Source of the DNA: Scilla litardierei | Lineage: Eukaryota; Streptophyta; Magnoliopsida; Asparagales; Asparagaceae | Assembly: GCA_030789695.1 (NCBI GenBank) | Contig: CM061142.1 | Location: forward strand, 281,978,165-282,042,164 | Length of the DNA stretch: 64,000 bases | Reading direction: 5' to 3' | Shown: piece after piece, positions 9,400 through 62,649 of the stretch | Layout of the letters: each line of letters starts with the position of its first letter | Position numbering within the stretch: position 1 is the stretch's first letter | Translations under genes and position numbers: made by a program | The notes under the pieces: model-generated | Told to the model about the DNA's origin: nothing | Databases searched by the model: none | What the model saw: only the letters and a program-made list of their open reading frames with translations

Positions 9400-11002
9400 T
9401 AAAAAATAACATGAATGCAATTGAATAGAGCAACATGAGAAATGATCTCAAGGTATTCAGCTCTTCAAGTTTGAGTAAAACATCTAACAACCAGAAGAAC
9501 CTTGTATCTGTCCATTCTCTCATTTCAGTGGTATTTCACCATAAATAGCTAGCAACAACACAAAAAATCCAACTCTGAAGAGGCAGGAACCAAGTGCATA
9601 CATACATATAGAACACATTGGAATATTGTATCATGTTAAAATTTTAGTTAAACTGCTTGTATCATGTTTTAACATCAAACTGCCACCAACACATTGGAAT
9701 ATTTTATTTCCACCAATTTTAACATACAGTTTTAACATAAAATATTTTAGTTAAAATAGTTTTAACATACAATTTTAACATATAGTTTTAACATAAAATA
9801 TTTTAACATCCAAATTTTAACATCAAACTGTTTTAACATAAAATATTTTATTGCCACTAACACATTGTATCCTGTTTTAACATCAAACTGTATGCTTAAA
9901 ATAAGATGATACAATGTTAAAACATCAAACAGTTTAACATTGTAATCAAAATTTGTTATAACAGGATATGCAACTATTAAACTCTTTGTACACCACTCCT
10001 GAGGCGGTCACCAACACATTGAACTCATTGAACTCATTGGAATGGCAAAATTGCTCCAGTTGAAGTCCTCATGAATGATAAATTTGTTATAACATGATAT
10101 ACATATCACACGTCATTCCAATAAGTTCAACTCCTCATGTTAAAATTGTATCAGAACAATGATACAATGTTATTATAATGACTCATGATATGTATGGAAT
10201 CTTGAAGTAGGTGAACCATTCGTTAAGGACTGGAAACCAAAATGATCCATCCATCCATCACCCAAAGCTTGCAAAATAACAAATAAAAAGGAACCAAGAG
10301 ACAGAAGGTTAAATTAGTCATTTTCACTCTATTAAATATTAACATTACCTCAAGTATCAAGGGCTACATTTATCTGACTCAATCCCGTCAAAACTGGACC
10401 TTCAAACAGAGGCAACTCTACTCATTTTTACCCAAGTCCACATAATTCTAGCATTACCATTAAATATAAAATAAACATTAACCAAAGGGCAAAAGTTCAG
10501 AATCCACCACTTGTATTATACACATAGGCAAATTTGAAACCTAAACCATATTTGAGATTCCGAAATCTGTTTAGGATATTGAAAGTCATCTTGAACAGTA
10601 GGACCGAGGGACAATACGGTTGAATCTTGAATTAGGTGAACCCTCATAGGGCTAAGCTATTTAATAACTTGTTGATGTGCTGCTCTTTTACTGTCTCTTA
10701 TGCATCTATTCTCATTATTTAAAATTCAGTTGACAGGCTTCTAGCTATGAAGTAGTTATGCCAGTCTGCCATATAATTGGTTATTGAACCTTCCTTATGA
10801 TCACTGACCCAAAAACATAGTCCACTAAGGTATGGCAGCAGATATATTGCATATTAATTGTATGATGCCCACTATGGAACCCAAAAACATAGTCCACTGT
10901 TGAACTCATTGTACCCAAAAATATGCTTATCATAATCCATAAGAATTTCAGCATACCATAGAAAAGAAATTATTGGTTCTTATATTGTTAAAAGAGGAGG
11001 AA
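9400..11002. repeat. AT-rich Helitron interior with TTTTAACAT repeats
   Basis: Between 9630 and 9960 the word TTTTAACAT (or CATAAAATATTTTA) recurs many times at irregular spacing. The rest is AT-rich with no recognisable gene. Confidence 0.5.
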
Positions 11003-17720: not shown

Positions 17721-20031
17721 TCTTTTAAAATATTCCCCAGTTAAAATCTTAAAGCACAAATAATTGTAATTTAGTTAAAAACATTAGTCTCTCAAAATTT
17801 AGTTCCCCGGAGAATTTAGTTTCCCCAAAAATTTTAGCTCTCTGCAAAATTTTGTTCCCCAAAAAAATTTTAGTTCTCTCCCAAAATTTAGTTCCCTCTA
17901 GAGAATATAGTTCAACCCAAAAAATTGACTTCTCCCAAAATTTCGTTCTCCCCAAATTTTAGTATTCTCTCTATATAATTTTCACAAACTCTCATCATAT
18001 CAAGTGATTTTCAAGATTCAATTACATCCGTCTTTCTAACCACCCTTTTGTCCTAGTCAACAATCACATTCAACACATCCCTTATTTGTATAATAGATGT
18101 CCAAATGAAAACTTAGTTAATTTACACAATAACAGTCGCCAAATTAACATAGACGACATTAAAAAGGGTAAATTTTGTTACCACTCTCTTGTAATCATAT
18201 GATCATTACGTCACTATTATCCTTAAATTATAATATTAACAGAAACCATCAAGCTGTAATGCATTGAACATCGGGTCTTAATAAGTTGATTTTGAGTTCT
18301 CAACATTGATTAGGCACCATAAAGTCTGTCAATTAGTTCTGAAAAAATTGTGTCTACTTTGTTCATAATATACACAGAAAGAATTTAATCGAGGTCATTT
18401 TCTGTTCATTTTGATCCAAAGTAAATAAACAAAGTTGATACAAATAAAATAAACAACTTGATACAAAGAAAATCTAGAAAGAAAATGTTGATACATTTAT
18501 GTTGATCCAATGAAAATCTACAAAGAAAAAAAATTGAACTGAAAAGTCTTGGATCAAGTTGCATGGCACACTTGTGCCTAAACAATTGTTTTAAAAATTT
18601 GTGCAGGTCATAAACTGAAAAGGCAATATCAGGATTAGGGTCAAAAAAATGTTCTAATTATGATGTTGATACATTATGATATCAACTAAAATATCCTGTT
18701 AACGTGATACATTATGGTTGTAATTAGCCCAACTAATTAGCCCAACAAAGGTGATACATTCTTTTCTTTTTGTGAATGAACTGGATCAAAATGAACTAAA
18801 AAATTGTATCAACTTTGTTCATAATCTACTTTGTTCATAATCTACAAAGGAAAGAATTTGTTCCAGTTCATTTTCAGTTCATTTTGCTCCAAAGTAAATA
18901 AACAAAGTCGGTACAAAGAAAACAAACAATTTGATCCAAAGAAAATCTACCAAGAAAAATGTTGATACATTCATTTTGATCAATGAAAATTTACAAAGAA
19001 AAAAATTTGAACTGGAAAGTCTTGGATCAAGTTCTTTCACAGGATAATGGCATGTTTGCATGTTTAAGTTCTCACAGGATGATGGCATGTTTGCATGTTC
19101 AAAATTTTAGTTGTTTAAGGATGTTCAAGTTCCATGATGTTGCCTCATAATTTGCATGTTTGACAACATGATAATGGCCATTCCCAACTGCAAACGAATA
19201 TGAGAACATGATAATTTCCAGAAATTAAATTAAATTAATATGAGCACTTGAACATCCTGGAACTGAAATAGTTACAGGACGTTTCCATTGTGAAAACAGT
19301 AAGGCAACAACTACTAAATTAGCATGGGGAAAACTGAACATAGCTAAAATTCATACATACATTTCTCAAATATCAGTGAAAACTCTGTTGAGAAGCATTA
19401 ACCAATCATAAATGCCAATTAGTTGACTTATCGGCCAATCCCCACCCAAACCCCCCCATCAAATTATCATTCAAAAACATCCATTAATTGTATAATAGAT
19501 GTAAATATTTATAGCGGATAACAAAAATTGTGGAGGATATGCTTTTCTAATACCGACTATGTGGCAGCTTTTGTTCCATCATTGGAGAATGACATGCCTT
19601 TTAGCCACACTCATTACTTGCCTTGCAATTAAAAGTAATATAAATATTGTGCATATGAAATTATTAAATGCATTTCTTACTTACATCTGAGTTCAATTCA
19701 CGGACCCATGTTACTTCGATTTGTCAGTTTGATTTTAGTCACAATGCCATGTTACTTCATTAATTTGCTCAACTGATCATTTCTCACTTGCTCTTGATCT
19801 CCATGATGCTCTTCACATTGAGGACATATAAAGAGTAAGCCGATATCTGCCTCCCCGCCACCTCGACCTCTCGGGAACCTTGCCCTGCTGCCCTGATCTA
19901 GTTATGGGATTGATTGCATTTCTTTTTCTAAGGAACATAAACACCCTCGTTTATAAAATTGAAATTAACAATTGAATACATCCCTAAAACTATTACATCA
20001 CTGCATTAATTTTGAAACTCAAATCCCAAAT
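17721..20031. other. AT-rich Helitron interior, no gene recognised
   Basis: Includes 17780-17960, where a degenerate 18-22 bp unit AAAATTTAGTTCCCC repeats about nine times. Similar CCCCCAAATTTTCGAGCT repeats occur near the other Helitron end (25160-25220). 18400-19100 contains repeated phrases such as ACAAAGAAAATCTACAAAG. No coding signal. Confidence 0.45.
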
Positions 20032-27241: not shown

Positions 27242-30200
27242 ATGTCTGTCTTCTTTTGGAATACTAGAGGCCTGAATAATACAGCTAGACAAGAAGATCT
27301 GAGGCATTCAATGTGTAAGCTCTGTCCGTCTATTGTCTGTTTGCTTGAAACTAAGGTTGAATCATGCAATGCTAGTCATATTTCCAGATGCTTTGGTAAG
27401 GATTGGGATAGCATTGACAATAGAGACCATCATAAAGGGGGTCGTATTGTTATCTTCTACAAGTCTATTGTATGGCGTATCACCCCTATTGCGGCCTCGA
27501 ATCAACACATCTCAGCTTTATTCACTAACTCGGCGGGATTTGTAATGGGTCTAAGTGCTGTCTACGGCCTCAATTTGGTTACTTCTAGAATCCCTCTTTG
27601 GAGCAATCTGGTGACGGATGCTGATTTATTAAATAAGATGCCTTGGTTATGTGGAGGGGATTTCAACTGCGTTAGAAGTTCCCATGAGAAGCATGGTGGC
27701 CGACATGTTGATGATATGGACATGGATGCATTTAACTATTGTATTGGGGCATGCCAACTAATTGATCTGAAAAGTACAGGGCCGCGACTCAGTTGGAGCA
27801 ACAAACGTGTTAGGGGAAACCGTATATTAGCAAGGCTTGATCACATTCTTTGCAATACAGTCTGGATTTCTCAGATGACACATTCTTATTATGAATATCT
27901 CCCATCGGGGACTAGTGACCATGCTGCTATGCTGCTTTACCTGCTCCCTAAGGTCAGTTCTAAACCCAAACCGTTCAAGTTTTATAATTCCTGGACATCT
28001 ATTCCTGGCTTTAAAGATATTATTAGTATGAACTGGGGCCAGCATAGGGGTTCTCCTGGCTTGCGTGGGCTTCAGAATCAATTAAGTGCCATTAAAAGTT
28101 TATTAAAGACCTGGGCGGCTGGACAAATGCGGAAGGTGGATGTTAATGCATGCCGTACCAATCTTTCTTCAATTCAAACTGACCTGAACTTGAAATTGGA
28201 TGTAAATCTGCAAAAACAAGAAATTATTGCTTCTCACAATCTTGGAGTGGCTCTTAAAATTGAGGAGGAGGACCTGAGGCAAAAAAGCAGACAGAATTGG
28301 CTAATTCTTGGGGATAGCAATTCTAATTTTTTTTATACTTCTCTGAAAGCTAGACACTGTCATAACAATTTGCATCACCTTATCAATTCTGATGGGAATA
28401 TGAATTCTAATTTTGATGCTTTGCGGAAGGAGGCGCCTCTCTTTTATCAGAATTTATACTATCAAGAAGAGTATTGGAATGTATTTCCTAATCTTATCCC
28501 TAAACGAAAAATTACTGAGGAGGCAGCTAGCTGGTTGGAACTGCCTGTGAATCATGTTGAAATCAAATGTGCATTATTCCAGATTGGCAAGGACAAAGCC
28601 CCAGGACCGGATGGGTTCAACGCCCATTTTTTCCAATATAATTGGGACATTATTGGTGCTGATGTAATTGCAGGGGTTTCTGATTTTTTCAGATCTGGAA
28701 GGATGATCCCTAGCGTAAATCATGCTTTATTAACTCTTGTCCCAAAGAATGCAAATGCTTCTGGCCTGGGTGACTACAGACCGATTGCTTGCTGCAATGT
28801 TATGTATAAAATTATCAGCAAGCTATTATGTAACAGATTGAAACATGTCATTTCTGATCTGATTTCTCCACACCAGGCAGCTTTTCTAAAAGACAGGTTG
28901 CTGGCAGATTACACACTTCTTGCCCATGAACAGATTCGAGAATTTAGCAATCCTATGGGATCCAGAACCTGTATTAAATTGGACATACGTAAGGCGTTTG
29001 ACAGTGTTAATAGGGAGTTCATAATTTTCCTACTTCACCAGATGGGGTTCAAATACACCTTCATTAATTGGTTTTCTCAATGCATATCCTCCCCAATGTT
29101 CTCGGTATTAGTAAATGGTTCCCCTGAAGGTTACTTTGGCTCCACTAGAGGTTTGCGCCAGGGTGACCCTCTTTCTCCGTATCTATTTGTCCTTGTTATG
29201 GAAGCTTTCTCCCTCCTCATGTCTGTGGCTGACTCTACAGGTGCAATTCATCCCTTGCGTAGAACTGGATCAATATCTCATCTCCTCTTTGCTGATGATC
29301 TTTTAGTTTTCTGCCGTGCAAATGCACATTCCCTTCATGGTCTTAAGGATTTGCTTGTGAATTTTAATCTCATGTCGGGGCTTCATATTAATTGGGATAA
29401 GAGTTCTGCAATATTCAGTAAGGGGGTTCGTAATGCGAGAAGCTTATCTGAGATTCTTGGAATTAAATTGGTTTCCTCTTTCACTACCTATTTGGGTCTT
29501 CCCCTTTCATCAAATTACCCCAGAGCTTCTATGTTCTCTAGACTGGTTGATAAATGTAAAAAGAGGCTTCTTGGGTGGTCATCTTCACTGCTTTCTATTT
29601 CTGGGAAAATTGAATTGGTACGCTCTGTCATATACGGTATGGTCGCTTTTTGGATGCAAGCTTATTGCTTTCCTCCTTCTGTTATTAGAGCTACCAACTC
29701 AGTTTGCAGGAAATTCATTTGGGGCAGGAGAAATATTTGGGCCTGGCAGGATATGTGTACTCCTAAAAAGGAAGGTGGCGTGGGTCTGAGGCAATTGGCT
29801 GACTTGAATGTATCCTCTGGTGTTCGCTTAACTTGGAGACTGCTATCTAATAAAGGTATTTGGGCAAATTATATGAGGAGGCACTATACGGCGGTTGACA
29901 GTGGATTTTATACTGCCAAATCATCCCCAACACACTCTGGATCTTGGAAATTCATGCTTAAAAGCCGTCAACTTTCACACCAACTCATTAAACGCACTAT
30001 CAATGATGGGAAATCTACTTCATTCTGGTTTGATAACTGGCATCCGAGGGGGGCCACTTTATCTCTTACAAGAACCTATTACGGGAACTGAAAAAGCCCG
30101 GGTTAGGGATTTCTGGAATGGAAGTGCATGGACTAATGTGCCGCATATTCTTGGATTGGGTAACCCACTAAAGAGTATCACCTTGTGTGAAGAAACATAT

Positions 30201-53460: not shown

Positions 53461-53716
53461 GGAGATAGAGTAAATAGCCGCCGCTCCGCCAGGGGAGGGC
53501 TACCCTGCTAGAACCTCCCCTGTGTCTTGTCGCCTTTTCCTTTTTTCATTACTTCAAATGTATTGTCTCACGGAAATGAAGGCATACACTGTCAATGCAA
53601 ACTCTATCACCTGTTTTGAGCAGATGATTCAGGAACGAAGGAGGACTCAATCAAGGCAACCGCGGTCCGACTAATATGGACCAGCCCGAATTTCAGGGGC
53701 CCACTTCTTCGTCGGC
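53461..53716 (+). other. Spacer between gag remnant and tandem arrays
   Basis: No gene or repeat recognised. Likely internal sequence of the same Tat-like element. Confidence 0.4.
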
Positions 53717-54133
53717 CGTAAGCCGAGGGGTAACTCCCCTCGCCACCGAACGAATCTTCTTCGTCGGCCGTATGTCGAGGGGCAACTCCCCTCGCCACCG
53801 AACGAATTTCCTTCGTCGACCGTAAGCCGAGGGGCCACTCCCCTCGCCACCGAATGAATCTCCTTCGTTGGCCGTAAGTCGAGGGGCAACTCCCCTCGCC
53901 ACCGAACGAATCTCCTTCGTCGACCGTAAGTCGAGGGGCAACTCCCCTCGCCACCGAACGAATCTCCTTCGTCGGCCGTAAGTCGAGGGGCAACTCCCCT
54001 CGACACCGAACGAACTTTCTTCATCGGCCGTAAGCCGAGGGGCCACTCCCCTCGCCACCGAACAAGTCTTCTTCGAACGGCCGTAAGTCGAGGGGCAACT
54101 CCCCTCGCCACCGAACAAATCTCCTTCGTCCGC
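53717..54133. repeat. Eight tandem copies of a 52-bp hairpin unit
   Basis: Units begin CGTAAGYCGAGGGG at 53717, 53769, 53821, 53873, 53925, 53977, 54029 and 54082. Most contain the hairpin CGAGGGG-YAACT-CCCCTCG; some have CCACT in the loop. Period 52-53 bp. The minus-strand peptide repeats (EGSCPSTYGRR) are translation artefacts. Confidence 0.93.
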
Positions 54134-54628
54134 CGTAAGCCCAGGGGTACTCACCCCCGCAGACCGAGCAAATCACCCACTCCTAAGGCTGGGGGCAACA
54201 CCCCCAGCCGACGAGCACGACGCCCGGTCGTAAGCCGAGGGGTGCTTACCTCCGCGGACCGAGCAAATCGCCCACTCCTAAGGCTGGGGCAACTCCCCCA
54301 GCCGATGAGCACGACGCCCGGTTGTAAGCCGAGGGGTGCTTGCCCCCGCAAACCGAGAAAATCGCCCACTCCTAAGGCTGGGGGCAACTCCCCCAGCCAA
54401 CGAGCACGACGCCCGGTCATAAGCCGGGGGGTGCTTGCCCCCGCGGACCGAGCAAATCGCCCACTCTTAAGGCTGGGGTCAACTCCCCCAGCCGACAAGC
54501 ACGACGCCTGGTCATAAGCCGAGGGGTGCTTGCCCCCGCGGACCGAGCAAATCGCCCACTCCTAAGGCTGGGGGTAACTCCCCCAGCCGACGAGTATAAC
54601 GCCCGGTCATAAGTCGAGGGGTGCTTGC
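54134..54628. repeat. Five tandem copies of a 95-bp unit related to the 52-bp array
   Basis: Units begin at 54134, 54231, 54323, 54418 and 54513, with a partial at 54608. Each starts with the same YGTAAGCCGAGGGG or CATAAGCC word as the 52-bp units but adds a second hairpin, CTGGGGG-CAACT-CCCCCAG. Confidence 0.92.
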
Positions 54629-54919
54629 TAATCACTCCTTATTTTACACTTTTTTCCCGTATGTTTGCATGCCATTTAGATCGCCCAAATCATGTTTTTC
54701 ATGATATATCGACGATATTGCGATGCTTTTCACGATTTGTTGTTTTTGTCGCATTTCAGGTGATTTGGAGCGATTTGGAGTGATCTCGAGATACGCTTAC
54801 TCCGAAGGGTCACCGACGACCTCCCCAAGGGGTATTTTGCTGTTGGAGAGGAGCAGAAGAAGAACGGACGTCACAGGAGCGACGAGGAGGCCAAAACAAG
54901 CTGTTTGGGCATTTTTGGT

Positions 54920-55310
54920 GTCCCACTCGGCCGAGTGAAGGAGTCACTCGGCCGACCAGCGAGACACCGCTCGGCCGACCAGATCAGACACGATTCATAT
55001 GTGCACTCGGCCGAGCGACGGAGACCACATCGGCCGAGTGACGAGATCCCGTCCGCCCGAGTGGCGCCCAGACGAAGCCATTCAAAAATCGCCAACTTAC
55101 TGTTTTTCGGCTGCCTGAGCTTCAGAAGACCCACTCGACTGAGTGGATAATCCCGACCGCCCGAGTACCAAGAAGCCCGCGGCCGAGTGACGACAGCTCA
55201 CTCGGCCGAGCCGCCCCCGAAGTGAAGACCCCTGAAGATCAAGACTTACTGGAAATTTACAGGGTTTCTCACTCGGCCGAGCGACTTTTGTCACTCGGCC
55301 GAGTGCGACG
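54920..55310. repeat. Cluster of CTCGGCCGAG palindromes in the LTR
   Basis: About nine copies of ACTCGGCCGAGY or one-base variants, at irregular spacing (about 54927, 54947, 54968, 55005, 55028, 55182, 55201, 55269, 55291). The same word is clustered again at 59700-60010. Confidence 0.88.
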
Positions 55311-55788
55311 CGCTGCCTGTAGCGAAAATTGCGGATTTCAGGCTGCGCAGGGGTATTTTGGTCACAGTTTTTGGACGATTTTGGGGGGTATTTAACCCCT
55401 GTTTTTACCCTAGTTTTGGAGAGCTTTTCCTCTTAGATTTTTGCAGCTTTTTAGATTAACTTTTAGCTTTATTCTTGTGATTGGAGAGGAGACAAAAGTT
55501 GATTTTTGTTGGATTATTTGAAGAACTCAATTGGTTTGTCTCTCTCTTCTCTAAACATTCTATTTTTATTGCTTATCTCAATATTGTGATGAATTCTCTT
55601 GTTAATTTCATTGATTATTTTTGTGTTTGTGCTATGAATTGTGAGTAGTCTCCACGTCTTGGGGCGTGGGGATGAACCCTACAAGCCCTATTTCATATTT
55701 GTGATGAATTGGTAGAAATTTTGCTAGAATTGCTATTAGGGATTAGTTTGGGAGCAATTTACTACGGATAGCTAGGAGTTCATACCGA

Positions 55789-56086
55789 TTGGGATTTGCA
55801 AGAGATTGGATCCCAACTCGATAGGAAACCCTAGAAATCCGAATTGGGTTGGAATCGAATTTCCGTAGTATCGGTTTGCAAGAGATTGGACCGATACTAG
55901 GGTTCCCGGTTGCAATTCCGTGCCGATACCCGTTTGCAAGAGATTGGACGGGTAGGAACTATCCCAACCTAGGTCGTTGGCCGAGTTTGCAAGAGATTGG
56001 GCTCGGTGCGCGATTGAACGATGATGTTGATCCTAATGCTAGCTTCCCTAGGCTAGGATTTGCAAGAGATTGGACCCGAACCTAGG
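55789..56086 (+). repeat. Five hairpins with one constant loop and different stems
   Basis: The loop TTGCAAGAGATTGG occurs at 55796, 55876, 55934, 55987 and 56060. Arms: TTGGGAT/ATCCCAA (55789-55816); TAGTATCGGT/ACCGATACTA (55866-55899); TACCCGT/ACGGGTA (55927-55954); CCGAGT/GCTCGG (55981-56006, closing T-G); CCTAGGCTAGGAT/ACCCGAACCTAGG (56047-56086, three mismatches). The loop is identical in all five and the stems differ, yet each pairs with its own partner. They would lie in the transcribed part of the LTR. Confidence 0.9.
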
Positions 56087-56451
56087 ATAGCTATAGACCG
56101 GCAACAGCGCGAGAGCGTGAGCTTGGTTCTACATTCAGTTGCAACTAGTTCATCCAAAATCTTATTCTAGCAATTTTGATACCGATGAACCACATTTACG
56201 AAATACGGTGAGTAGCGGGAATTCCCCATTCCCTGGACGTTCTTTATTTGATTTGATATTTCCGTACTTTGTCTGACGATTGTGACAGGATCGCCAAAGG
56301 CAAATTTCTCTCTTCTTAAATAGCCAGGTTGATTAGAACAAGCACGGTCATTCGTCCTCCCTGTGTTCGATAACCCGCTCGCTGCTATACTGTGCACTTG
56401 CGGTAAAACTACAACCGTTCTTTGGGTTACATCCCGGAGCGATCAAGTTTT

Positions 56452-56469
56452 TGGCGCCGTTGCCGGGGA
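56452..56469 (+). other. Athila-type primer binding site (Asp tRNA)
   Basis: TGGCGCCGTTGCCGGGGA, the Athila-lineage PBS complementary to aspartate tRNA, six bases after the LTR end. Confidence 0.93.
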
Positions 56470-56571
56470 GGCGATTGCGTTTGATCTTACCACCCTAGCT
56501 ATTTCTTTTATTTTTATTATTATTATTTTATTTCTTTATTTTTCTTTTACCTAACCCTTCCATTGTGCTAA

Positions 56572-59376
56572 TCACTTCTTTGAAACTTTGTTCTCCTGTG
56601 CATATACACGAGATCTACGGCGGACCCTGAAGCTATATTATTTGATCCCGAGATCGAACGTACCGCGCGGAGAATTAGAGCGGAGAGGAGACAAGATCGG
56701 GAAGGGAGGTTTATGACCAACCCGGAAACTGCGGACCAATTAGCGGCAAGAATGGCGAGGATAATTTCTATTCGAGACAGGCTTCGGCCTAAGACCTCTT
56801 CTACGACCTCATCCATTGCCATGCCGGAGTTGGCGGCTGACAAGAACTTTGAGCTGAAGACTGGACTAGTGGTTCTGATGCAGCAGGATCCATTTCATGG
56901 GAATGCCCATGAAAATCCTCACTACCACATCCAATTATTCTTGTCGAAGTGCGCCACATTTCAGATGCCGGGGGTCTCCATCGATGCCATCAGACTGCGT
57001 CTCTTCCCCTTCACACTAAAAGACAAGGCACTCTATTGGTTGAGGACGCATGCTGAGGGAGTCTTTACCACTTGGGACGAGTTGGCGAGTGTATTCATTG
57101 ATAAGTTCTATCCGCCCTCCAAGACGGTGAAGATTCGGAGCGCTCTTATGTCCTTCAAGCAAGGACACCAAGAGACGCTCTATGAGGCCTGGGAGCGTTT
57201 TAAAGATCTGCAGCATCAATGCCCGCACCATAGCATTGAAGACTGGGAGCTAGTTCATAGCTTCTACAACGGTCTCCAACCGGGGACCAAACAAATTATT
57301 GATGCCGCGACGAATGGTGCTATCTTATCAAAGACTCCCGAAGAAGCTACAGCCCTAATTGAGGAGATGGCCTCAAACAATCAACAATGGGGCGATGAGC
57401 GAGGACACTCTACATCCTCCTTGAAGCCAACTAGTATCTATGAGGCGAAGGCCGTAGCGGAGCTTACAAGCAAGTTTGATTCTCTCCACAAGGTAGTGGA
57501 GAGACTGGAGAAGTTTATCACGGAGCCCCAAGGAACCCCTTCCACCTCCGCGCCATCGAACCAAATGTGTGATTGGCAAGACCAATCTCAAGCCATGTAC
57601 TCGGGATGAGAGCAAGGAGAAGGATCCTTGGAGCAAGTGCAATATGTTGCGGGGAACCAAGGGTATTGGGCCAATCCGGCCACAAGAAATCATCTCGGTT
57701 TCTCTTACGCCAACAATGAAGAAGCTTTGAACCAGTCACAACAACCACCTCAACAAGCTCGACCGCCACCCCCACCCCAACAACAACACTATCCACCAAG
57801 GGGGCCTCCACAACAAAGTTTCCAACCGAAGCAACAAGTTCCACCTTATAGGCCGCCCGGATACAATCAAGGGTGGAGAAATCAAAATCAAAACCCTCCA
57901 CAAGCTCAACAACAATCCGACTTCGAAGCTAGAGTGGAGGCGTTTATGGTCAAGCAAAAGAAGGTCAATGCTACCTTGAAGGCGGGGCAAGACTCCCTTA
58001 CAACCGTTGTGGCCCAAATATCGGAACAATTGGCGTTGCTCAATCGGAACACTCAACATTTACCGGCGCAACCCGAGCAAAACCCACGGGGCAACACCGG
58101 CCACATCAATGTCGTAGTTGCCGTCACTACTAGAGGCGGGAAGGACACCACCCCCGCCATGATTCCTACCGAGGAGCCCGTGGAGGAAAGTTTAGAGCCA
58201 ATTGAGCCGGTAGTTGAAGTTGAGAAGGAAAAAGAGCCGCAAGAGAAGGAGAAATCTAGAGCGGAGCAATTGATTGAGGAAAGGCGCTTCATGCCATCGG
58301 TCCCATTCCCCCAAAGGCTTGCTAGAGCGAAAATGGAGAAAAGGCTAGCAAAGTTTCTTGAGTATCTGAGAGGGGTTAGCCTCAACATTCCCTTCCTCGA
58401 CGCCATCGTGGAGATCCCCACATATGCTAAATTCTTAAAGGATTTGATTTCGGGGAGAAAGAGGAAGGAGAAGATTATGCTAGCCGAGGAGGGCTCTTGG
58501 TTCACCAAGAGAGAGAAGGAGCCTGCCAAATTCAAAGATCCGGGGAGCTTTCGAATTCCTTGCACCTTGGGCGGCGTCCCTCTTCAAAAGGCGTTGGTAG
58601 ATTTAGGGGCTAGTGTGAGCCTCATGCCTCTCTCCATGTTCTTAAGGCTAAACACCGGGACGAAGTTGAAACCTACCGACATGCGGATACAATTGGCCGA
58701 TGGGCGAATAACAAGGCCGGTAGGGATCGCCGAAGACATCCCGCTACAAGTCCCGGGGGGAATATGCTTGCCATGTGACTTCGTGATCATGGACGTTAAG
58801 GAGGAGGGAGATACGTCATTGATACTTGGACGCCCGTTCCTCACCACCGTCGGTGTGATTGTCGACGTGCGAGAAGGTACACTTACTTTGAACGTCGGCA
58901 ACATCGAGGTGGAGCTTCATATTCCTAAGGCTATGAAACACATGCCTTACCACGAGGAGCTTGACTACATGGACCTCCTTGATGAGGTAATTGAAGAAGT
59001 GATCCCCCACTCGATTGGCGTTCTATTCGATGAGGATTTCGAGGGAGGCCCGGATTTAGGCAGAGATGAGAAGATAGATGATTCCCCCGACATCTCTGCT
59101 GAAAATGATGAAGGCGACGCTGATGTCGCAAGGATTCGAGAGCTCTGCAAGCTCTCGAAATTGAAGTCTCCGAAGAAAGCTCCGTCGATACGGAAATCGG
59201 CGTCACCGGTGAAGCCGTTGACCAGAGCAAATGCTAGCTTGGGGGAGCCTCCCCCCAACACTATTCGAGACAGGAGACCACCGAGGGAGAACACGCCGCC
59301 GCAACTTCCGAATCCAAGCGTTCTCCCCGGAAAGTTTGATGGGTGCATCTCGTATGCACCAAACATCCCGCATTAA
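56572..59376 (+). pseudogene. Athila gag-protease polyprotein with one stop
   Basis: Open from 56572 (first ATG 56713). The gag domain (Retrotrans_gag-like) spans about 56880-57330 (FKDLQHQCPHHSIEDWELVH), followed by a Gln/Pro-rich linker (57720-57930), then an aspartic protease with ALVDLGASVSLMP (about 58590) and a flap/ILGRPFL block (58830). An in-frame TGA at 57607-57609 divides gag from protease; otherwise the frame is intact to TAA at 59374-59376. Reverse transcriptase, RNase H and integrase are absent: protease is followed by about 80 acidic/basic residues and a stop. Confidence 0.9.
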
Positions 59377-60020
59377 TTGAAAATCATAGGGGGTCGAGCT
59401 CATGACCTTAAACGAGCGCTTGTCGGGAGGCAACCCGACGGTTATTGCTTTATTTTTACTTTTTCTTTATTTTTGTTTTAGAAATTTTTAGTGTTTTGAG
59501 TCGTTCGCCCAAAAATTTTGTGATAACGGGTCCTATTTTTCTTGACAGGAGAGGAGATAGGTAAATCCATCATGAGGAGGATGAACGAAGTGATAAGGAG
59601 CACCCCAGGAAGGCGCTCGATGCTTAGGAGGAAGATGAAATCGACTGGAGGAAGAAAGACGGAGTTTAGAGCCAAAACGAAGACAAACAGCAGAACACAA
59701 GGCTCACTCGGCCGAGTACACAAGTTCGTCCGGCCGAGCCGCTCACGAACGAGGGAAGTCTGCTACACCCAACTCTCTGTTTATTTTCCTGATTTCAGTA
59801 TAACTGCTACTCGGCCGAGTATATATATTCACTCGGCCGAGTAAAACGGATACGCTCCTAGGGCGAGTCTTGCCGAGTAGCTTGAGCCACTCGGCCGAAT
59901 GGACTTACTCCACTCGGCCGAGGCTGGCAAGGCCACTCGGCCGAGGCGTTAGCGAGTAGGGATTTTCCATTGATCTCGCTCGGTCGAGTGACTCAGTCAC
60001 TCGGTCGAGTCGTAACTTTT
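59377..60020 (+). other. Athila spacer with a second CTCGGCCGAG cluster
   Basis: Begins with the hairpin GTCGGGAGGCAACCCGAC (59418-59441 region), a motif commonly found after pol in such elements. From 59700 to 60010 it carries about nine CTCGGCCGAG or CTCGGTCGAG words. No coding frame accepted. Confidence 0.7.
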
Positions 60021-60564: not shown

Positions 60565-62649
60565 ATGCCGCCCCGGACACGGCCGCGGTCGAAGAGAGCT
60601 TTCGCCAAGCGGAAGCGGTCGGATGACGCCGGCCCCTCCCACGAGCTGGAGGACTCTCCTCCGCCTTCTCCCACACACCCCGTCCACCCAGCACAGCCTG
60701 CAGGCCCCGCACACCCCGCACAGCCTGCAGAGCCCGCACAGACCATACACCCCGCACAGCCGCCCCCTGCCGCTCCACAGCCACCACCTCCGGCTCCACT
60801 TATCGGGCCGCTGGGGATTACGTTCCGAGACGACGCACACCGCGTCGCTTTCGAGCGTATTTCCCAGCGCTCGATCGTACCCTCCAGGTTTGCACACCTT
60901 GCCGACCTAGGACGCCTGGGGGTACTAGAGGGGATGCTCACGTTGTACGACAACGTGTGCTGGCGAGATTTCTTTCAGGTGTCGGCAGACACGTTTATCC
61001 GTCCGACACTTGAGGTAATTAGTTCGATCGCCCGGACCGACGAGGGATGCTCGTTTCGGTTCATGGACCGGGAGTGCCAGGTCACTCTCGGTATGATGAG
61101 AGCCTTTTTCTCGTGGCCCGATGTCCCCGGGGCCGATCGAGGTTACGCCCCCACCCATATCCCCCCACCTTCCTTCGACGCCGGTGCCTTCTGGGCCCGG
61201 ATTACGGGTCTTCACACTGCCTTTGACCCTAGTAGGGCCAAGGCCTCGGCCATTATCCACCCCTGCCTCCGTATAGCTCAGCGCATAATGGAGACGACCT
61301 TTTTGGCCAGATATGAGCCAGGCACGATGTCCACGCCAGAGCTCTACATGCTCTACGCGATGACACGGCCCAGAGCTCTATCTAGGGATGGCGATGAGCT
61401 GGTCCCCGCCGTCGTGATTGATGTCGCGGCTTGGTTTTTGGACCGCATCATTGTATCGGTGGGCGCTCGCTCACCGATATGCTGCGGCGGCCTGATCACC
61501 TTGCTTGCCCTTATGACCGGCGAGGACTTCCCTGACGACCTGCGACGAGCACCGGGCCCCACTTCTCTGTCGATTGATGTTATGGCCCGGATGAAGATGC
61601 TTCGTCCGCACGGTGAGCGACACTGGGTCTGGCTGCACGGCCCTTACGGTGCCGATTACATGATTCTTCCGAGCCCAGCTCGGACTCAGATTGCACCGGC
61701 CCATGTGGACTGGCTCCCTGCGATGGATGTTCTGATCCCAGCCGCTTACGTGCTCGAGGCCGAGGAGGCCGAGCAGGCCCACGCTGCCCACGCTGCCCCC
61801 GCAGACCCTGTTGCCCCTGCCGAGCCTGCTGCCCATGTTGACCCCGTGGCCCCTCAGCCTATCCACGATGTTTCCGATGCTCCAGACACCTCTGTCCACA
61901 CCTCTGTCGGTGTCGGGAGTACCTTAGCTGAGCCCACTTCCACTGCTTCCACGCCTGTCACCACCAGCACTGGCCCTCTGTCTGCCGAGCCCGTTTCTTC
62001 TGCCCCACCCGAGCACGCCCCGCCGACTATAGTTGAGTGCGACGAGCCCTCTGTCCCCATTGCTGCTGTATTTTACGAGAGTGTCCTGGCGTCTGTCCAC
62101 ACTTCTGTGCCACCGACCTCTCTGGCCGCCTCGCCGCCACTTTTGTATTCTTCTTTCGCTGCTGCTGCCTCCACTTCTCACCGTCCTGCCCAGCCTCGCA
62201 CTGAGGCCAGGCCCACATTTGCGAGCGCAGCCCCTTTTGTTCACTTGCCTGCTGAGCCCGTCACCTACGCCACCAGAGTACGCCAGCCCCGACCTGCACA
62301 GCCCCGACCGGTGCGTCCCTCTGCACCACCTCCCCCCGACACTGTACTTCAGAGCATTCGTGCTCTCGAGGGGGCGGTGAGTGGCCTCAGAGGCGACCTT
62401 CGGACCCTGTCCGCCACCGTCTCCGCGATGGCTGGCCGCTTTGACCTGCTCCCGCAGATTCATTACTGCCTTACCCAGGTCCTGGAGCGTCTCCCCCGCG
62501 TACCCGTACCCACCCAGCAGGTTCCCACCCACACTTCCACACACACTCCTCCTGCTTCCACTTCCACACCCACCCCCGCTCAGCAGTCACTACCACCACC
62601 ACCTCCTCCTCCGCCTCAGGACGGAGACGGTGCAACACCACCTTCTTAG
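60565..62649 (+). CDS. Intact 694-codon Athila env-position ORF
   Basis: ATG 60565 to TAG 62647-62649 with no break. An N-terminal basic patch (PRTRPRSKRAFAKRKRSDD) may be a nuclear signal. Then a Pro/Ala/Gln repeat region (HPAQPAG, HPAQPAE), a globular domain at about residues 85-390 (ITFRDDAHRVAFERISQRSI, MLTLYDNVCWRDFF, RFMDRECQVTLGMMRAFFSW), a long Ala/Pro/Ser/Thr/His-rich tail, a short coiled coil (LEGAVSGLRGDLRTLSATV, about 600) and a polyproline end. The globular part fits the ATHILA ORF family (Pfam PF03078) by pattern and position. I see no signal peptide or transmembrane segment, so an envelope role is not supported. GC-rich codons (third position mostly C or G), unlike the rest of the window. 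Confidence 0.8.
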   Translation: MPPRTRPRSKRAFAKRKRSDDAGPSHELEDSPPPSPTHPVHPAQPAGPAHPAQPAEPAQTIHPAQPPPAAPQPPPPAPLIGPLGITFRDDAHRVAFERISQRSIVPSRFAHLADLGRLGVLEGMLTLYDNVCWRDFFQVSADTFIRPTLEVISSIARTDEGCSFRFMDRECQVTLGMMRAFFSWPDVPGADRGYAPTHIPPPSFDAGAFWARITGLHTAFDPSRAKASAIIHPCLRIAQRIMETTFLARYEPGTMSTPELYMLYAMTRPRALSRDGDELVPAVVIDVAAWFLDRIIVSVGARSPICCGGLITLLALMTGEDFPDDLRRAPGPTSLSIDVMARMKMLRPHGERHWVWLHGPYGADYMILPSPARTQIAPAHVDWLPAMDVLIPAAYVLEAEEAEQAHAAHAAPADPVAPAEPAAHVDPVAPQPIHDVSDAPDTSVHTSVGVGSTLAEPTSTASTPVTTSTGPLSAEPVSSAPPEHAPPTIVECDEPSVPIAAVFYESVLASVHTSVPPTSLAASPPLLYSSFAAAASTSHRPAQPRTEARPTFASAAPFVHLPAEPVTYATRVRQPRPAQPRPVRPSAPPPPDTVLQSIRALEGAVSGLRGDLRTLSATVSAMAGRFDLLPQIHYCLTQVLERLPRVPVPTQQVPTHTSTHTPPASTSTPTPAQQSLPPPPPPPPQDGDGATPPS

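Follow-up and report, generated by a model that had tools for sequence, protein, structure and literature searches.

A five-hairpin array with a fixed tip and covarying stems in the LTRs of Athila-type retrotransposons of Scilla litardierei

Introduction

Long terminal repeat (LTR) retrotransposons can form most of a plant genome. Here we describe an array of five hairpins in the 5' LTR of an Athila-type retrotransposon from Scilla litardierei, a plant with a 3.68 Gb genome. The element lies in a stretch of 64,000 nucleotides (positions 281,978,165 to 282,042,164 of contig CM061142.1), hereafter the window. The nearest described counterparts are the psi and dimer-linkage hairpins of retroviruses, which are likewise leader hairpins capped by a fixed tetraloop; as far as the available text of PMC516450 goes, stem-loops with a GACG tetraloop in alpharetroviruses and gammaretroviruses are involved in packaging. 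Judged from sequence, the plant element has conserved leader stem-loops with a fixed tip of this retroviral kind. Unlike psi, its array comprises five units with a GAGA tip and a bulge, lies in the LTR upstream of the primer-binding site and belongs to a plant Athila-type element, for which a packaging role is what we infer.

Plant elements with only part of the usual coding capacity have also been described. BARE2 of barley cannot produce Gag, yet it retains the signals for dimerization and packaging and enters particles, and the accessible part of PMC3735527 treats it as parasitic on BARE1. In the present case the gag-only and pol-only kinds are complementary on paper and bear a repeated hairpin array. 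TR-GAG elements are LTR elements with gag only, one of which moved in Arabidopsis ddm1 (PMC8704663). In the sections of that paper at hand they have a single open reading frame (ORF), and their full-length relative ATCOPIA63 is potentially autonomous, whereas gag is not the sole ORF of the window element, which also has a protease and an ATHILA ORF, and its partner kind is pol-only. Sireviruses have palindromes with a CGG-CCG core upstream of the TATA box and near env, according to the consulted portion of PMC2829016; those repeats are palindromes upstream of the promoter, whereas the array lies downstream and sets variable stems on fixed tips. Leader hairpins with a fixed tetraloop, gag-only elements and gag-less elements are already known kinds. 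In our searches of open-licence PubMed Central we found no description of a five-fold tip array with covarying stems, nor of a complementary gag-only/pol-only split with a common array.

Results

Five hairpins in one LTR

The 14-mer TTGCAAGAGATTGG occurs exactly five times in the window, at 55796, 55876, 55934, 55987 and 56060, each time with a T directly 5' of it, and the only other match at up to two mismatches is at 18181. The copies sit inside complementary arms, as the original prediction had claimed. Flush pairing of the arms extends over 7, 10, 7 and 7 bp in copies 1–4, that of copy 4 including two G·U pairs; copy 5 has one flush pair followed by a stem with interruptions, about 13 pairs in 19. 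When arms of 8 bp were swapped between copies, the self-pairing score of 34 out of 40 was reached by the true pairing alone among 120 permutations, while the fully mispaired permutations had a mean of 19.75 and a maximum of 26. Viral contigs served as a control: in the 94 unrelated ones that contain the 15-mer, perfect arms reached 3 at most, or 5 with G·U. The swap test and this control together show that the hairpins are not due to chance. Fold z-scores were -4.0 as RNA and -5.6 as DNA.

All five hairpins are on the plus strand, and their variation is described relative to the further arrays introduced below. Hairpin 1 (55767–55839, tip 55796–55809) is a long imperfect rod with five pairs changed on both sides, and hairpin 2 (55845–55920, tip 55876–55889) has nine such pairs in its helices 2 and 3. 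Hairpin 3 (55927–55954, tip 55934–55947) shows C-G/U-A changes at arm pairs 4 and 5, and the tip of hairpin 4 (55972–56015, tip 55987–56000) is TTGCACGAGAGTGG in 39 of 62 arrays. Hairpin 5 (56040–56093, tip 56060–56073) has a weakened inner stem in the window copy, partly from a base that is present in 2 of 60 arrays; the 3' LTR of the same element is without this base, and the first four pairs are intact there.

Two parts of the original description need amending. The arms were said to be unrelated between copies; this does not hold for every arm, since copies 1 and 5 agree at 92% over 26 nt and may be closer kin. The loop was called invariant over 14 nt; it is identical in the five window copies, but it is partly paired and varies elsewhere in the family; as a pattern the tip reads TTGCANGAGANTGG.

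The array is placed between a TATA-like box (TATTTAA, 55389–55395, plus strand, a consensus match only) and the primer-binding site at 56450. The box lies about 380–700 nt upstream of the array, in agreement with the predicted downstream position. We also scanned the window for other loops that recur with dissimilar arms. The matches listed were AT runs, GC-rich and other tandem repeats, scattered pairs and one small cluster, at 9722–9820, of GTTTTAAC palindromes with arms.

The array across the genome

Exact 14-mer tips number 167,774 in the genome (84,400 + 83,374), against 5 (1 + 4) for the reversed control, and tip pairs 30–60 nt apart occur at 29,590 + 29,340 places, against none for that control. 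To avoid selection by the hairpin itself we picked 90 loci through the primer-binding site; they are 90 of the 100 primer-site places listed (20,312 exist), all within 12.5 Mb of the start of C1. An array was called from at least three motif matches, with up to two mismatches each, within 1290 nt. By this measure 61 of the 90 elements have the array, 59 of which possess the complete set of five hairpins at a fixed spacing, and all five sites fall within 4 nt of that spacing in 60 of the 62 arrays compared. Arms that do not pair, or a loop mostly without arms, were named beforehand as the findings that would tell against the hairpin; in the sample 302 of 308 hairpins, including the five of the window, keep at least five of the seven tip-adjacent pairs, so neither finding arose there.

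Scores from a model of the hairpin did not rise above chance in the 29 array-less loci, where the best was 16.9 bits (L138), or in loci L095–L099; phage controls with a built-in 15-mer scored up to 27.7 bits and the ten hairpins of the window and its 3' LTR 38.7–46 bits. Other repeated-apex arrays, sought in 14 of the 29 array-less loci, amounted to a few words in three loci. The two-loop pattern had no match in the collections of viral contigs and genome contigs, the window gag had no relatives among viral contigs whether searched as a single sequence or as an alignment, the primer-binding site had no match in viral contigs or in two contaminated bacterial genomes, and a plasmid search gave no lead.

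Loci L095–L099 are plant retrotransposon sequence within deposited Solirubrobacter, Geminicoccus, Blastococcus and Modestobacter genomes, that is, contamination. One of them (L098:300-760, plant DNA in a bacterial assembly) holds the LTR of another gypsy element with five hairpins of common tip CCACTTGG and partly different stems, some units of which are inside a 245-bp duplication; this is possibly an independent array of the same type.

Covariation and selection of the hairpins

The RNA fold of the tip consists of a U·G pair, a 2-nt UG bulge, a 3-bp stem C-A-A/U-U-G and a GAGA tetraloop of the GNRA type. Its closing pair is C-G in 41, A-U in 18, U-G in 2 and C-U in 1 of 62 copies of site 4, and A-U in 48 and C-G in 12 of 60 copies of site 5. 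Genome-wide it is A-T 167,774 times and C-G 32,129 times, with 247 copies of one mismatched intermediate, the C-T form; the A-G form would be TTGCAAGAGAGTGG. The outer stems change likewise: arm pair 4 is C-G in 33, U-A in 28 and U-G in 1 at site 2, and C-G in 34, U-A in 24 and U-G in 4 at site 3, while arm pair 6 of site 4 is U-A in 36 and C-G in 26. The stems differ between sites and subfamilies yet stay paired.

For a formal comparison we aligned 28 of the 59 complete arrays, picked for diversity, with that of the window. Across these 29 arrays the named structure of 101 pairs is paired in 96.4% of 2,926 cells, compared with 47.6% and 47.9% when slid by one column, and 24 of its pairs are changed on both sides. 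The covariation score was 0.244 versus 0.176 (standard deviation 0.004) in shuffles, none of 500 of which scored as high. Comparison between sites gave 90.6% of 372 cells paired and a score of 0.573 versus 0.215. RNAalifold predicted 104 pairs in the same 29 arrays, 25 of them changed on both sides. A tree made from sequence outside the array requires a minimum of 15 switches from one Watson-Crick pair to another, spread over 8 positions. The poorly paired positions are arm 7 of site 2 (42%) and arms 5 and 7 of site 5 (55% and 38% of copies).

G·U pairs occupy 493 cells and A·C 48, or 169 and 45 within Watson-Crick-dominated pairs; this large excess indicates that the sense RNA is the selected strand. 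Identity among the 62 arrays is 0.989 for the first three tip bases, 0.979 for GAGA, 0.925 for the inner stem, 0.816 for the arms, 0.81 for the remainder of the array and 0.639 for U3. These results establish the structure of the hairpin array and its selection, and bear out the expectation that, were the hairpin itself selected, its arms would change together in other copies. Fixed tips on free stems are the pattern left by a hairpin that is read by a protein.

The conserved LTR block spans about 55640–56150. Its last stretch, just after hairpin 5 (56092–56150), is the most conserved of the LTR (0.89–0.94 in 30-nt steps) and contains CGCGAGAGCG, a potential sixth GAGA-capped hairpin that has no bulge and in which no covariation was seen.

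Gag and pol on different array-bearing elements

We examined the interiors of 20 of the 61 array loci over 1.5 kb each, together with the window and pieces of other copies. Nine loci match the gag of the window and the beginning of its protease ORF; none of the nine matches reverse transcriptase (RT). Three (L139, L145, L146) match RT over 464–496 amino acids and not gag. Six (L130–L133, L151, L154) match weakly, at 33–41% over 61–132 amino acids, only the part of the pol ORF that precedes RT, and two (L148, L156) match neither gag nor pol. The six weakly matching loci have long ORFs without a Pfam match after the array and primer site, and they may be distant pol kinds with RT further on, or further kinds. 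The pre-RT part of the pol ORF (L146:1532-2600) also has no Pfam match, and many of the relatives listed cover barely more than half of the query.

The pol-type locus L146 continues into ribonuclease H (RNase H) and integrase (L223), and after the integrase comes a tail of 137 amino acids that is homologous to the end of the window gag-protease ORF, followed by an ATHILA ORF (L221). No gag match was found in the pol-type pieces L139, L145, L146, L221 and L223. Conversely, the five gag-type pieces taken from 2.4–4.2 kb past the primer site all lead from the last part of the protease ORF into the ATHILA ORF, and none of them matches RT, RNase H or integrase. In both further pol copies, on other chromosomes, the pol ORF follows the array and the primer site. 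An open pol frame of 1337–1339 amino acids is present in 59 of the best-scoring 86 of 85,479 candidates, three of the 59 having one inner stop. The gag frame has 927–941 amino acids in 40 of the best-scoring 132 of 62,015 candidates (two with one inner stop), and two more are longer.

One of these two longer frames (L229:525-2101, C7), a gag-type open frame of 1352 amino acids, runs, in frame by coordinates, into an integrase that is 99% identical to that of the pol kind over 196 amino acids, apparently a gag/pol recombinant. In a tree of 23 LTRs the gag and pol kinds interleave, with 5 and 3 changes forced by starred branches; gag kinds are in both major groups, and the five pol kinds in which RT was seen are all in one. 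A complete gag-pol within one element, as expected of the Athila lineage, was not found among the sampled elements. On this limited sample, the homology matches show a splitting of the family into gag-protease without pol and pol without gag.

The window element and its setting

The window element is flanked by a 5-bp target-site duplication, CTTGC, read from the sequence at 54624–54628, with the second copy directly after the 3' LTR. Sequence comparison places the 5' LTR at 54629–56445 on the plus strand; the 3' LTR lies outside the window (C13:282042774-282044589) and is 98.46% identical to it over 1815 aligned columns. The primer-binding site (56450–56469, plus strand) is of a type that we take to be tRNA-Asp. 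Also on the plus strand follow a gag ORF (56713–57609, PF03732), an ORF with an aspartic protease (57628–59376, PF13650), the frame being broken between these two in the window copy, and an ATHILA ORF-1 family protein (60565–62649, PF03078). No match to the RT, RNase H or integrase of the family's own pol was found anywhere in the window.

Assignment to the Athila lineage of Ty3/gypsy, as predicted, is supported by the PF03078 domain (E 7.7e-08 in the window, 9.5e-11 in the pol-type L221) and by gag and RT relatives from plant elements. The window gag has 324 relatives, the top-scoring one being 48% identical, and RT relatives were found with, for example, 81% identity over 47% of the query. 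A search of 54500–57000 against Rfam gave no family at gathering score; the lone match at E≤1 was CrcZ on the minus strand (56429–56548, 14.6 bits versus 95), outside the array, so that the hammerhead ribozyme typical of a retrozyme was not among the matches at that threshold.

The insertion site (53707–54628) is a tandem-repeat array with 52-bp and 95-bp units, which resumes past the 3' LTR. The window has ten exact CTCGGCCGAG palindromes, five each in clusters at 54926–55303 and 59707–59945, which lie upstream of the LTR TATA-like box and of a TATAAA (60023) preceding the ATHILA ORF; the second cluster is possibly an internal promoter. The layout resembles that of the Sirevirus palindromes, in the part of their description available to us, but the host element here is Ty3/gypsy.

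Discussion

We propose to read the array as a cis-acting RNA tag in several copies, which most likely serves as a packaging signal common to the parts of a split Athila-type retrotransposon; we hold this reading to be just about probable. Elements with different, complementary first ORFs keep the same five tips, and hence the array must serve something that is supplied in trans or common to all of them; packaging by Gag would be the simplest such service, with precedents in the GACG tetraloops of animal retroviruses (PMC516450) and in BARE2, which has no Gag of its own but retains packaging signals (PMC3735527). The array would then act as a five-fold RNA recognition element in the 5' leader, in each unit of which a stem that is free in sequence carries the one fixed tip. 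A protein would read the tip, and the stem would merely hold it up. Gag from gag-type elements, or Pol from pol-type elements, would bind the five tips, and RNAs of all kinds would enter one particle and be reverse-transcribed together. Protein binding, packaging and co-packaging are steps that we infer, and among the roles speculated on earlier, packaging takes the lead on the grounds of the split gag and pol elements.

Other explanations share part of this evidence. The protein bound by the hairpins may not be Gag but Pol or the ATHILA-ORF protein, the array bringing RT and integrase to the RNA, as in foamy viruses, where separately made Pol is taken up in an RNA-dependent way. Pol-type elements encode Pol without Gag, so that Pol needs its own entry into the particle, and the C-terminal tail of about 137 amino acids and the ATHILA ORF are common to gag and pol kinds. 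However, within the first 496 amino acids of the pol ORF Pfam recognises RT only, and no result here separates Gag from Pol; we consider binding of Pol or the ATHILA-ORF protein instead of Gag unlikely. We are similarly sceptical of a role in translation or RNA fate (ribosome shunt or entry, nuclear export, stability) in place of packaging. With a transcription start near 55420 the leader would be about 1.3 kb long and have eight ATGs ahead of gag, the export elements of animal retroviruses have repeated tips too, and an array-less sister family, described below, is apparently split as well, so that the role of the array may lie elsewhere than in joining parts. Yet the same array is kept ahead of quite different first ORFs, and with three ATGs within it the array is not ATG-free.

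Dimerisation, by kissing contacts between UUGCAA palindromes at the tips of two genomic RNAs, appears very improbable. TTGCAA is self-complementary, and the available text of PMC516450 has retroviral dimer linkages using palindromic loops; but 41 of 62 site-4 tips are closed by C-G and read TTGCAC, by which the 6-nt palindrome is lost, and three of the six palindrome bases are paired inside the tip. These two facts rule out kissing-loop dimerisation via TTGCAA. It is hardly credible that the array has no function in the element and is a DNA-level cruciform or palindrome, or a product of copying that regenerates arms, the mechanism offered originally as an alternative to selection. Copies 1–3 minus the tip would be perfect palindromes and the DNA z-score is -5.6, but G·U is much commoner than A·C, both bases of the inner tip pair change together across the genome with few C-T mismatches (167,774, 32,129 and 247), and the spacing of the five sites is fixed in 60 of 62 arrays. 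The strand, covariation and spacing counts rule out a DNA-level feature or copying as the main cause; for arm-regenerating copying in particular, it is the fixed spacing and the evolution by paired substitutions that exclude it. Tandem duplication alone is excluded as well, since tips agree and stems differ.

Several observations weigh against the packaging tag, or against parts of the argument for it. At the level of the hairpin, the inner tip stem has a single-sequence probability of about 0.6 at sites 1–4 and 0.17 at site 5, and hairpin 5 of the window folds better on the minus strand. In tips 1–3 RNAalifold pairs UUG with UGG instead of forming the inner stem; we named the CAA/UUG stem at all sites because sites 4 and 5 covary there. 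Six of the 15 Watson-Crick changes are at the site-5 tip and could reflect exchange with site 4, and shared descent of many changes, together with possible recombination between LTRs, means that the counts overstate independence. At the level of the family, 29 of the 90 elements with the same primer site have no array, and the LTRs of the two kinds, though interleaved, cluster more on the tree than in any of 200 label shuffles. Elements beyond those sampled may include one with a complete gag-pol. Finally, packaging in HIV-1 was little affected when the conserved GGAG loop was replaced, according to the portion of PMC7599994 at hand, so a conserved tip need not be a packaging determinant.

In the array-less sister family, loci L138 and L150, whose LTRs are 79% identical, appear to be a pol kind and a gag kind: the gag of L150 is 58% identical to that of the window over 172 amino acids, and L138 has RT near the primer site instead of gag, with up to 66% identity over 119 amino acids. 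By these matches this family looks split too. Splitting is thus not tied to the array, which also counts against the packaging tag, and our confidence in packaging was lowered accordingly, from fairly probable to its present grade. This family may have another signal. Three further loci (L136, L143, L152) have gag at about 37% and are also without the array.

A wider reading, which we put forward tentatively and regard as somewhat less than probable, is a segmented LTR retrotransposon. The gag-protease kind, the pol kind and perhaps further kinds would be separate genomic segments with one common LTR and a five-hairpin identity tag, co-packaged by means of the tag and exchanging LTRs and coding blocks by template switching, a multipartite element with tens of thousands of tagged LTRs.

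Little is known of the packaged RNAs of plant LTR retrotransposons other than BARE, or of how packaging proceeds, as far as the available sections of PMC3735527 go. Covariation over very many natural copies here singles out a short RNA tip that is directly testable, and the array offers a simple genome-wide marker of the element kinds that use the same machinery. If gag and pol are truly on separate, complementary elements joined by the tag, this would be a multipartite retrotransposon, and it would help to explain how elements that each lack essential genes have multiplied so widely.
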